Below, piece by piece: positions 22,478 to 27,002 of a stretch of DNA of 64,000 nucleotides. The position numbers were made by a program, and so were the translations under genes. The notes beneath the pieces were generated by a model that was not told the origin of the DNA, made no database searches, and saw only the letters and a program-made list of their open reading frames with translations. Within the stretch, counting starts at the first letter, position 1, and the number at the start of each line of letters is the position of its first letter. The DNA comes from Blastocatellia bacterium (lineage in GTDB: Bacteria; Acidobacteriota; Blastocatellia; UBA7656; JADIYM01), in contig JAJTWZ010000004.1 of the NCBI GenBank assembly GCA_021463145.1, positions 62,001-126,000 of the forward strand, given 5' to 3'.

Positions 22478-24679
22478 TCACGCGTGATGCGTCAGGTCCG
22501 AGACTCCGAACTCGCGAAGCGCGCTCTTCAGATCGACCGAAACACCGGTTCGAAGTGACTCGAGGATCGCGAAAGTCGTAAGAGTGGTCGCGATCTGCGA
22601 GTCGAGCGGGATGGGCGACGGGCCGCCAGACCGCACGGAGTCCACGAACGAAGAGACCTCCGCCGCGTGCCCCTTGTCCTGGGGGCCGCCTTTGAGTTTC
22701 TCCTCGCGTCCCTCGCGATACACCGACGCGGACTTGAAATCGTCGAGCACTGCAGACGAGCCGTCGGCGAAGATCTCGTAGCGCTCCTTCGCCATTCTCT
22801 TGTCGCCAAGGGCGACGTAGACGATCGTTCCGACCGACCCGTCCGACATCTCGAGCGAAACTACCAGGCTATCGGCGTCCGTCTCCCTGCCGTTTCCCGA
22901 ACGAACGGAGACTGCTCCGGCGCGCGCTGGCGTCGATCCGGTCATGTACTGAACGAAGTCCACGAAGTGGCAGACCTCGCCTACTACCCGGCCTCCGCCT
23001 TCCACCGGGTCCTGCGACCAGTGCTCCCGAGGAACGAAGCCGGCGTTGATGCGCACACTTACGACCATCGGGCCGACACGTCCAGCGAATCTGTCCCTGA
23101 CCTGGCGAGCCAGCGGTGCGAAGCGACGATTGAAGCCGGTCAGAAGTGGACGTCCGCTGGCACGAGCTGCATCGACGACGAGCCTGAGACCGTCCGTGTC
23201 GAGAGCCAAGGGCTTTTCGACGAACACGGCCTTTCCTGCCGCAAGGGCCCGCGCGGCGAGCGATGAGTGGAGGTTGTGCCGTGTCGCCACGAAAACGCAC
23301 GAAGTCGACGAGTCATCGAGAATCTGCTCGATGCCCGAGGACATGAACGCGAACTGAAACTTGTCGGCGACACTGCGCGCCGTAAGTCCCGACGAGGTTG
23401 CGACGCCGGTGAGCCGGACCCGGTCGAGGCGCTTGAGCGGCGGCAGCAGGCTCGCGGTCGCAAAGTTCCCGGCACCAACGAAGGCGACGCCGACGTCGCC
23501 AGGTATGGAAGCCGATTTCGCACTTGAATGCTCCACGCGCTCTGAAAGCGCGGGAGCTCCCGAGTATTCGAGGAGGATCCCGCAAGGCGAATCGCCTGCC
23601 TTGCCAAGCACCACGTCATATGCGGCGACCGCCTCTTCAAGTGGAAACCGGTGCGTCGTCAGGTGCGACATCGCGATTCGACCGGATGCAAGCAACTCGA
23701 TGAAGGACGACATGTTGCGCCCTTCGGTCCAGCGCACGTAGCTGACCGGGTAGTCGATACCGTGTTCCTCGTAGGAGGGGTCATACCGGCCAGGCCCGTA
23801 CGACCTGGACATGCGCACGTCAAGTTCCTTCTCGTAATACGGTGAACGAGGCACGTCCATCGGCACAAGCCCGACGACGACGACGCGCGCTCGCATCCTC
23901 GCGATGCGTCCGGCCAGTTCGATCGGGTCGTTAGATTTCGCGCTCGCGGTAATCACCACCGCATCCGCGCCGACGCCGCCGGTGAAAGCGTCAATCTGCC
24001 GCTCGACGTCTTCCTTTCGGATGATTGCCAGATCCGCCCCTGACACGACGGCGCGAGCAACGGTGGCCGGATCCAGGTCGACACCGGCTACGCGACAGCC
24101 CGAGGCGCGAAGCAACTGCACCGTTATCTGTCCAATGAGGCCGAGGCCGATCACGACGACCGTCTCGCCGAGCCGCGCATCGGCTTGACGCACGCCCTGC
24201 ATCGCAATCGCGCCAATCGTCGTGTACGCCGCATCGTCGAACGAAACCGAGTCAGGAAGGGGAGTGCAGAGGTTGCGAGGAACGAAAATGAGCTCGGCGT
24301 GGTTTGCGTACGTCGCTCCGGCGCAGGCAACGCGGTCGCCGACGTGCAGGTCAGTGACGCCTTCGCCGACGGCCGCAACTACCCCGGCCGCGCTGTATCC
24401 GAAGGGCTTGAGCGACTCGAGCCGGGTCCGAACCTTGAGGACCGTAGCGCCGAGTCCTTCCTTCCTGACGTTGTCGACAACTTGTTTGACCAGGTCCGGA
24501 CGTTGGCGAGCCTTGCCGAGGAGTGAACTCTGCCCCACCGAGACGGTGCCGCGTTCCGTTCCAGCGCTGATGAGTGACCTCGAGGTCTGCACGAGCACGC
24601 CACCGGGCCTGCAGGCCGGAGGCGGCACATCGCCGACGCTCACCTCTCCCGACTTGAAATTCTGGAAGACCTGCTTCAT
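22478..24679 (-). CDS. Bidomain oxidoreductase: zinc-type dehydrogenase fused to GFO/IDH/MocA dehydrogenase
   Basis: A 733-residue fusion. The first half (about 1-360) is a medium-chain dehydrogenase with GYSAAGVVAAVGEGV, HVGDRVACAGATYANHAE and Rossmann VVVIGLGLIGQITVQLLRASG. The second half (about 390-700) is a GFO/IDH/MocA-type domain with GVAFVGAGNFATASLLPPLKR, VFVATRHNLHSSLAARAL and GKAVFVEKPLAL (the family's EKP motif). Such bidomain enzymes typically lie in polysaccharide-synthesis clusters and oxidise sugar derivatives; no glycosyltransferases are seen here. Substrate is unknown. The 42-bp gap to the zinc-ribbon gene upstream suggests co-transcription. Confidence 0.9.
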   Translation of the reverse strand: MKQVFQNFKSGEVSVGDVPPPACRPGGVLVQTSRSLISAGTERGTVSVGQSSLLGKARQRPDLVKQVVDNVRKEGLGATVLKVRTRLESLKPFGYSAAGVVAAVGEGVTDLHVGDRVACAGATYANHAELIFVPRNLCTPLPDSVSFDDAAYTTIGAIAMQGVRQADARLGETVVVIGLGLIGQITVQLLRASGCRVAGVDLDPATVARAVVSGADLAIIRKEDVERQIDAFTGGVGADAVVITASAKSNDPIELAGRIARMRARVVVVGLVPMDVPRSPYYEKELDVRMSRSYGPGRYDPSYEEHGIDYPVSYVRWTEGRNMSSFIELLASGRIAMSHLTTHRFPLEEAVAAYDVVLGKAGDSPCGILLEYSGAPALSERVEHSSAKSASIPGDVGVAFVGAGNFATASLLPPLKRLDRVRLTGVATSSGLTARSVADKFQFAFMSSGIEQILDDSSTSCVFVATRHNLHSSLAARALAAGKAVFVEKPLALDTDGLRLVVDAARASGRPLLTGFNRRFAPLARQVRDRFAGRVGPMVVSVRINAGFVPREHWSQDPVEGGGRVVGEVCHFVDFVQYMTGSTPARAGAVSVRSGNGRETDADSLVVSLEMSDGSVGTIVYVALGDKRMAKERYEIFADGSSAVLDDFKSASVYREGREEKLKGGPQDKGHAAEVSSFVDSVRSGGPSPIPLDSQIATTLTTFAILESLRTGVSVDLKSALREFGVSDLTHHA

Positions 24680-24721: not shown

Positions 24722-25720
24722 CTAGGCCGACGGCGCGTAGTTCGCGCGACGTTCGTGGCGGAACGCCTGAAGAACCTTGTGGACCTGTCGCGGCTTCAAC
24801 GATCCGCCGAGCGACTCGGCAATGGTCTGGTGCAGCCCCTTGTCGGGCGGGGTTGTCGACTCCAGATAGGACAGATACTGCCGGACGATTTCGTCGCGAT
24901 GCTCAGGTGCCGGATCCGGAACCGCCTCGAACGCCCGGGGATCGTCGTGAAGTACGTCAATCCATCGAAGAACCTGCCACCTGTTTGCATAACCGAGCGA
25001 GTCGGCAAGGGTCTGCGGCAATTCGTCGAGACTGTGCTCGCGTGCCTGAATCGCCAACCAGTAGGCCCGCTCGATCTCGAAGAGCTGCTGGCGCGAGAGC
25101 CTGGGCGTCGGACTGGCGGCATCCTGCTTCCGGGCCAGGTCGCGCACGGCGAGGATGACTTCCTTGATAGGTACGTTGAGCTGCGTTGCGATCGCACGGC
25201 GGCGGCCACCGGCCGGACGCTCGTGCCGCTCGACCATGTCCCGGTAGATCGCCCACGCCTGCTCGCGAAGCTCCGGCGTCAGATGAGCCATCTTCGCCGT
25301 GACGTCCTGGATGACTTCCGCCACCATCCAGCGTCGCACCCACAGCTTTTCCGCAATCGAGGCGTGCAGTTCGCGCAATGATTCGCTGCCGCCGTTGGCA
25401 AGCCCGAAGGCCTCGGTGATCTGTTGCCGGATCTCGTCCGTGAGGTCGGTCGGCTTTGGCGGCCGTGGTCCCTTCTTGACCTTCTTGACGAGCACCGGCG
25501 ACCGGGGGCGCGCGGCGTCGGCGACTGCCGCCCGGGGGCCTGCCTTTCGAACTTCGACCGCTGCCGGCCTGGCGGGCTTGCCGCCGGTCACGGGCGCGAC
25601 TGCGGGATCGGCGACGCCCATTCGCTTCGAACACTTCGAGCAATACAGAGCATTGCGGTTCGGCGAAAAGAACGTGACGTTGCACAAATCACAGCTCTTT
25701 CGAAACTTCATTCCGGCCAT
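24722..25720 (-). CDS. Zinc-ribbon protein with four tandem helical (HTH-like) repeats
   Basis: 332 residues from ATG 25720 (ATG 25711 is equally possible). Cys10-Cys13 and Cys27-Cys30 form a treble-type zinc ribbon. A basic Ala/Pro/Lys linker (residues 40-92) follows. The rest is four units of about 50 residues at roughly 93-141, 147-198, 208-260 and 272-324. Each has the pattern of a helix with R..I or R..., a loop, then LHxxIAxxL, then RxxVxxVI or similar. The shared frame (for example LHASIAEKLWVRRWMVAEVI and LHQTIAESLGGSLKPRQVHKVL) suggests helix-turn-helix units. I know no named family. It could bind DNA or RNA. It lies next to a zinc-ribbon pseudokinase upstream. Confidence 0.75.
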   Translation of the reverse strand: MAGMKFRKSCDLCNVTFFSPNRNALYCSKCSKRMGVADPAVAPVTGGKPARPAAVEVRKAGPRAAVADAARPRSPVLVKKVKKGPRPPKPTDLTDEIRQQITEAFGLANGGSESLRELHASIAEKLWVRRWMVAEVIQDVTAKMAHLTPELREQAWAIYRDMVERHERPAGGRRRAIATQLNVPIKEVILAVRDLARKQDAASPTPRLSRQQLFEIERAYWLAIQAREHSLDELPQTLADSLGYANRWQVLRWIDVLHDDPRAFEAVPDPAPEHRDEIVRQYLSYLESTTPPDKGLHQTIAESLGGSLKPRQVHKVLQAFRHERRANYAPSA

Positions 25721-25844
25721 AGCGGTGAATACTGTATCGAGCCCGTTTGGTCTGTCAAGGAATGGGAATTGAAGGAATACGGAGGCCTCGGGACAGCTTG
25801 AAACAGCGCCGAATCCGGCCGCTATCGGCAGGGACGAGGACTCG

Positions 25845-27002
25845 TCAGCTGTACTCGGTAACCTCGTCGTCGCCGTCGTCGTCCCGGCCCTCGGTCGCGC
25901 CGGTATCGCGCCCGTCAAGCGGGTCGGTGACTCGGACGGGAGCCGGCGCCGAAGAGTCCTCGATTATTCGCGACGCCTCGACGAGACGGGAGGAGCGGCG
26001 CTGCGGCTCCGCCCCGGGTTCGGGCATTATTGAAAGGTCGAGCTCGATCTCCTGCAAAACTTCGATGAGGTCGGTGATCGATCGATGACGGGCGTCCGGG
26101 TTGAGCTCGAGCGCCCTGAGCATCGACTGCTCCAGCGCGAGTGGAATGCCAAGTTCCTTGTTGAGCACCATCAGCGGCCTTGGATCCTCCGTGAGATAAA
26201 CGGCCGCGTCGCCCTCGATTGCTGCATCCGAAAACGGAATCCAGCCACTGAGCATCTGGTAACAGAGCGCGCCGAGCGAGAAGATGTCGGTCCGGTCGTC
26301 AGCTTCGACACCGCGGCCAGTAACGATCTCGGGCGCGAAATAGTTGTCGTAGTTCTGCAGTCGCAAAGCTCCGGCCGGTGCGGTCAGGGCGCGCGCGTTG
26401 TGAATCCGGATAGTCGTCGCAAGGCCGAAGTCTGCGAGCTTGACCGTCACGCCTCTCTCGGACCGATCGACGATGAGCACGTTCTCGGGCGTGATGTTCC
26501 CGTGGACGAATCCGGAGTGGTGAGCGCCGGTCAGCACGTCCGCCACGCGCAGCAACGTGGAAACGACGAATGGCGGCTTGAGAGGCGCCTCGCCGGTTAT
26601 GAGCTCGTCGAGCGGGATGCCGGGGAAGTCGGTGCTGAGCAGCGCGTATCGGCCATCTTCGAGCTGAATTGGAATGTAGTCACCCAGCACGTCCGGCTCT
26701 CGAAGGCCCTGAGCGAGTCTTTCGGAAAGCTGCAGTAGCGAGCCGAAGACCTTCGAATTGACAAGCCCGCGACGGAACAGCCTCAGCGCAAAAACCTGGC
26801 CTGGGTCGATCGCGTCTTCGACCCGGTACACCACGCCGAAGCGGTCCGTTCTCATTCTCTCGACGACGCGAAGACTCTCGTTGACGACGACTCCGATCGG
26901 CAGATAAGTCTCCGTTGTGTGAGGAATCAGCGGAAATCCGTCTGCCTTGCAGAAGCGGACTTCGTCCACGTAGACGGTATTGCACTTTGGGCAGACTGGC
27001 AT
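25845..27002 (-). CDS. Zinc-ribbon pseudokinase (Hanks-type fold)
   Basis: The 385-residue protein begins MPVCPKCNTVYVDEVRFCKADG, a zinc-ribbon-like start with Cys4, Cys7, Cys18. A kinase fold follows: FALRLFRR with Arg74 in the place of the ATP-anchoring Lys, VHGNITPEN at 166-174 where HRD has become HGN, then intact DFG (191-193), APE-like YFAPEIV and DIFSLG. The glycine loop is also absent (RTDRFGVVYR). With both the Lys and the catalytic Asp lost, catalysis is unlikely, so I call it a pseudokinase that binds or scaffolds. The C-terminus is acidic, Pro-rich and probably unstructured. It is upstream of the HTH-like zinc-ribbon gene. Confidence 0.85.
   Translation of the reverse strand: MPVCPKCNTVYVDEVRFCKADGFPLIPHTTETYLPIGVVVNESLRVVERMRTDRFGVVYRVEDAIDPGQVFALRLFRRGLVNSKVFGSLLQLSERLAQGLREPDVLGDYIPIQLEDGRYALLSTDFPGIPLDELITGEAPLKPPFVVSTLLRVADVLTGAHHSGFVHGNITPENVLIVDRSERGVTVKLADFGLATTIRIHNARALTAPAGALRLQNYDNYFAPEIVTGRGVEADDRTDIFSLGALCYQMLSGWIPFSDAAIEGDAAVYLTEDPRPLMVLNKELGIPLALEQSMLRALELNPDARHRSITDLIEVLQEIELDLSIMPEPGAEPQRRSSRLVEASRIIEDSSAPAPVRVTDPLDGRDTGATEGRDDDGDDEVTEYS

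Follow-up and report, generated by a model that had tools for sequence, protein, structure and literature searches.

The window analysed here, a 64,000-nucleotide stretch of a Blastocatellia genome, contains a reverse-strand gene for a protein of 332 amino acids, located between a protein-kinase-like gene and an oxidoreductase gene. The features of this gene and of its upstream region are as follows.

25731..25758, reverse strand: sigma-70-like promoter, TTGACA-16-TACAGT; the -10 box ends 10 nt before the ATG
24722..25720, reverse strand: whole gene, 332 aa; zinc ribbon, basic linker and four helix-turn-helix (HTH) units
25613..25720, reverse strand: N-terminal zinc ribbon, residues 1-36; MxGMKFR..CxxC(13)CxxC; beta hairpin, then a short helix (sequence and AlphaFold2)
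25460..25612, reverse strand: low-complexity basic linker, residues 37-87; net charge +9
25292..25459, reverse strand: HTH unit 1, residues 88-143; helices 95-108, 115-126 and 130-143; signature IAEKLWVRRWMVAEV
25112..25297, reverse strand: HTH unit 2, residues 142-203; helices 149-164, 173-181 and 185-201; invariant RPxxGRR loop; signature IATQLNVPIKEVILAV
24929..25108, reverse strand: HTH unit 3, residues 205-264; helices 210-226, 234-242 and 247-257; F.IE[KR] motif; signature LADSLGYANRWQVLRWI; the most divergent unit
24731..24931, reverse strand: HTH unit 4, residues 264-330; helices 272-286, 296-303 and 310-326; invariant PP...LH and a QVH[KR].L...R recognition helix

The start codon was placed at the ATG at 25720, because alignments of the relatives begin at M1 (MxGMKF) and because this ATG is immediately preceded by a promoter-like element. 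A longer ORF from a TTG at 25918 was rejected, since the relatives begin at M1 and the promoter lies between the two codons. The families of Blastocatellia are designated here f1 to f9, f1 being that of the window and f2 its sister family. Both in the window and in 7 of 7 f2 genomes, a TTGA-type -35 box is followed after 16-17 nt by a -10 box (TACAGT, TAGACT or TACACT) that ends 9-12 nt before the ATG; the promoter of L009 was read by eye. With so short a distance, the mRNA is predicted to be leaderless or nearly so, and the gene to form a separate transcription unit. In f5 and f6 a TA-rich box is found 31-41 nt upstream, together with a purine-rich stretch that resembles a ribosome site; the homologues in these two families appear to be leadered, unlike the predicted leaderless mRNA of f1 and f2. 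No conserved operator was seen upstream of the gene beyond the promoter hexamers.

The upstream neighbour in the window (25845-27002, reverse strand) encodes a Ser/Thr-kinase-like protein. It carries an N-terminal CPKC motif; the Lys normally found in beta-3 is replaced by Arg (FALRLF) and HRD by HGN, and DFG is retained. Judged by its sequence, it looks like a pseudokinase. The downstream neighbour, 42 nt away, is an ADH/GFO-IDH two-domain oxidoreductase (22478-24679, reverse strand), which likewise lies 3' of the gene in each of the six f2 genomes that were examined.

The zinc ribbon consists of two CxxC knuckles, with all four cysteines at the positions given in the initial annotation (Cys10/13 and Cys27/30), and AlphaFold2 places a hairpin (strands 6-9 and 16-19) between the knuckles. 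The linker was likewise correctly described as basic, judging by its charge, and is in addition predicted to be disordered (pLDDT <50 at residues 38-84). In family f3 the ribbon is of the C-C-C-H type (CxxC + CxxH), with a histidine in place of the fourth cysteine. The ribbon and unit 1 are both absent from the members in f5 and f6, which have a basic N-terminal tail starting with an RLIKKG-like motif; since two families do without these parts, units 2-4 constitute the conserved core. The homologues without ribbon and unit 1 (L026-L033) have in common a short basic N-terminal motif, R-L-[IV]-K-K, which is possibly a linear binding motif substituting for the ribbon.

The initial annotation had proposed four units of about 50 residues with a shared helical pattern. 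Four repeats are indeed present, with lengths of roughly 50-65 residues rather than a uniform 50, and with unit 3 divergent. Profiles of the units were cut from an alignment of 28 relatives and compared pairwise by hhalign. Pairs among units 1, 2 and 4 gave probabilities of 96-97% and scores of 43-54, as against maxima of 13-18 after column shuffling, while pairs involving unit 3 gave 12-87% and 18-30 (shuffle maxima 13-16). In none of the six pairs was the observed score reached by any of 60 column shuffles. By their sequence profiles, units 1, 2 and 4 are clearly homologous. A profile of these three units matched its own genome at three places in the gene, with E values of 1e-19 to 1e-25, and had no significant match elsewhere in that genome. 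The window protein contains four copies of an HTH signature of the IA..LG.-turn-..V..V type, and none of 5,000 shuffles of its residues had more than two; the test is somewhat favourable because the pattern was written after the family had been inspected. The strict HTH pattern is found in only one or two units of the distant members.

The full-length AlphaFold2 model, built with four sequences, has a mean pLDDT of 76, with the unit blocks at about 70-94. It comprises a hairpin and helix (the ribbon), the disordered stretch 38-84, and three-helix units at 95-143, 149-201, 210-257 and 272-326; the pTM is 0.51, and the relative placement of the units is therefore not to be trusted. A model of unit 2 alone, made with 11 repeat sequences, reached a pLDDT of 86, with helices at 8-23, 32-40 and 44-61 and a three-residue turn before the third. 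The predicted units thus have the three helices, HTH turn and hydrophobic pattern of the HTH/homeodomain-like superfamily, and the suggestion that the repeats are HTH-like has stood up to structure prediction: four helix-helix-turn-helix units are predicted, with neither a missing turn nor unrelated folds among them. Foldseek comparison of the full-length model with the PDB gave no match at E <0.001; the third match, likewise not significant, was the Reb1-DNA complex 5eyb. The best 50 PDB matches of the unit 2 model are nearly all HTH proteins of homeodomain, transposase, MntR, ArsR, GntR, Myb or winged-helix type. Homeodomains, TnpE (second best), DUX4, MntR and Myb are among the best, and none is individually significant (best E 0.42).

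The gene was found in 30 of 162 Blastocatellia genomes, in one copy each as far as assembly allows; the genome of the window has a single copy. It is present in f1 (1/1), f2 (7/7), f3 (9/10), f4 (3/4), f5 (6/6), f6 (3/3) and f9 (1/11), and was found in neither the one genome of f7 nor any of the ~119 of f8, the largest family (the totals for f7 and f8 derive from numbering ranges). Phyla other than Acidobacteriota were covered by a close-relative scan of the genome collection; the scan returned three relatives, all titled Blastocatellia. In a sample of 396 genomes from across the phylum, G230 alone holds a relative outside the class; of the four units this protein has only units 2-4, which it combines with a CxxC..CxxC ribbon of its own and a long Arg-rich linker. 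This relative (L071 / L086:4484-5800, reverse strand), from another class, has a linker of ~150 residues rich in Arg and Pro and sits on a very long branch; a gene for an RpoD-like sigma factor lies ~2 kb away. Matches of A2 in G179 and G314 were rejected as chance, their frames reading like an M3-type metallopeptidase. The gene tree groups by family with seven changes, the least possible, against a shuffled mean of 17.8, and this grouping fits mainly vertical inheritance. The single f9 copy (L013, genome G150; 1 of 11 genomes) branches beside f2 and may reflect horizontal transfer or differential loss. Searches of plasmids, phages and viral contigs revealed no relative.

Searches of Pfam, NCBIfam and, by sequence, the PDB returned nothing above cut-off for the window protein. 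PHROGs, NCBIfam and PADLOC gave no convincing match, and as to a function in defence, no PADLOC match was better than E 0.01. No description of the family was found in the literature. The remark that no named family has this order of parts therefore holds for all of the collections searched, and we regard the protein as a member of a genuine single-copy family, unnamed and so far undescribed, that is built from known modules. The best sequence resemblance of the units is to transposase and paired-type HTH domains. HTH_23 (PF13384) is the commonest weak Pfam match, occurring in 5 of the 10 members scanned with a best E of 1.5e-4; its cut-off is 24.6 bits, isolated units of relatives score 12.9-14.4 bits, and the window protein is unmatched. 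The unit profile also matches the Sleeping Beauty PAI domain among PDB sequences (E 0.008). Together with the rank of TnpE in the fold search, these matches raise the question whether the protein is the domesticated DNA-binding region of a transposase, a ribbon and HTH modules that remained once the catalytic domain had been lost. The N-terminal zinc ribbon of ISL3 and IS1 transposases is followed by an HTH, the same order as here. The window protein differs from all of these elements, as it has no transposase catalytic domain (Pfam, NCBIfam), no Pfam match to the ISL3/IS1 type, no signs of mobility, and four units instead of one or two. It also departs from the multi-copy habit of IS630/Tc1-type elements, being single-copy with a tree that follows the host families, and the lack of relatives on plasmids, phages or viral contigs further argues against this origin. 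We regard domestication as highly improbable; a transposase as remote ancestor could nevertheless be compatible with the DNA-binding reading set out below.

Conservation and charge are unevenly spread over the protein. All members, that of G230 included, share an invariant core to which unit 2 contributes R-P-x-x-G-R-R, unit 3 R...F..E and W...L, and unit 4 I...Y..YL....PP...LH and H..L...R; R168, P169, R173, R174, H297, H314 and R321 are invariant. The net charge across the family is +13 to +32, and the positive charge is concentrated in the ribbon, the linker, helix 2 of unit 2 (+3.0) and helix 3 of unit 4 (+3.4). Units 3 and 4 as wholes are near neutral, so contact with DNA is not required of every unit, and helix 2 of unit 3 is acidic. 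HTH folds are also used for protein-protein contacts, and the neutral units would suit a scaffold or RNA polymerase-associated factor that touches nucleic acid with its ribbon and linker only. Such a role would agree with the weak likeness of the unit profile to the C-terminal module of RPB5 (E 0.006-0.6 against PDB sequences) and of the window protein to FliG_N (E 0.08). It is quite unlikely, however, given that helix 3 of unit 4, one of the best conserved segments, is strongly basic, and that unit 2 has its invariant arginine loop. The Pfam matches listed for the members do not include RPB5. Membership of RPB5/archaeal RpoH was rejected, as a Pfam scan of the window protein with matches up to E 10 contained no RPB5, and the resemblance was for this reason treated as analogy or chance.

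An RNA-binding factor, acting on rRNA, in antitermination or in ribosome assembly, is suggested by the position of the gene in some other genomes; here the ribbon and linker would hold RNA, and the HTH units would form an RNA- or protein-binding rod. In g7 of f3, which is most likely Chloracidobacterium, the gene comes directly after ribH-nusB. Two f2 genomes have it behind nusB-cheA-cheW (cheA and cheW read from translations), and in f6 a SpoU-type rRNA methylase lies upstream. One member weakly matches a 'Zn-ribbon RNA-binding protein' model (E 0.015), and the family profile weakly matches the eS31 ribbon (E about 1). The nusB gene of the window's genome is on other contigs, however, so that a functional link through the nusB operon cannot be general, and the great majority of the fold neighbours are HTH proteins that bind DNA; we therefore think an RNA-binding role unlikely. 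Since the neighbours differ between families, the context does not indicate one process, and no regulon emerges from it.

The reading that we favour, with a probability of roughly 60%, is that the protein is a lineage-specific, multi-HTH DNA-binding regulator or a nucleoid or architectural protein. It is preferred because no sensor or enzyme domain is apparent; the Pfam and NCBIfam scans detected no catalytic or ligand-binding domain. Nucleic-acid binding is suggested by the predicted fold class, by the positive charge of the ribbon, the linker, the second helix of unit 2 and the third helix of unit 4, and by the invariant Arg and His residues in these parts; that the target would be DNA rather than RNA, and the role regulatory or architectural, we only infer. 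Against DNA binding we count the lack of any individually significant fold or sequence match, HTH_23 included, which stays below its curated cut-off. The protein may lie along double-stranded DNA by means of its tandem homeodomain/Myb-like units, with the ribbon and basic linker as anchors. From conservation and charge, the RPxxGRR loop of unit 2 and the QVH[KR] helix of unit 4 would be the principal points of contact, with a more structural part for unit 3. Such a protein could serve as a dedicated transcription regulator or organise the nucleoid, and would do so without a domain for sensing small molecules.

Among known systems, Reb1/TTF1-type proteins also carry tandem tri-helical (Myb) HTH units in one chain; they are not known to have an N-terminal ribbon of the present type. 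They are eukaryotic, and no sequence similarity to the window protein was found; the DNA-binding region of TTF1 has been described (PMC11358750). Double homeodomains (DUX4, tandem engrailed) resemble it as well in their tandem homeodomain-like units, and both appeared in the fold searches; they have two units, are eukaryotic or engineered, and match at E about 1 only. A bolder version of the DNA-binding reading, which we hold to be very unlikely, makes the protein a class-specific four-homeodomain-like-repeat reader or coater of DNA, a bacterial analogue of the Reb1/TTF1-type roadblock or architectural factors that organises or insulates the Blastocatellia chromosome and is missing from one large family.

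It is unusual for a single short bacterial chain, with neither a sensor nor a catalytic domain, to contain four homologous HTH units. The variable N-terminus, with ribbon and unit 1 either present or absent, offers a natural experiment on the role of each part. Acidobacteriota are a dominant soil phylum whose dedicated regulators and nucleoid proteins are little known; for this phylum, the single-copy and mostly vertically inherited multi-HTH protein described here is a concrete and testable candidate, with cultured Chloracidobacterium as a probable source.
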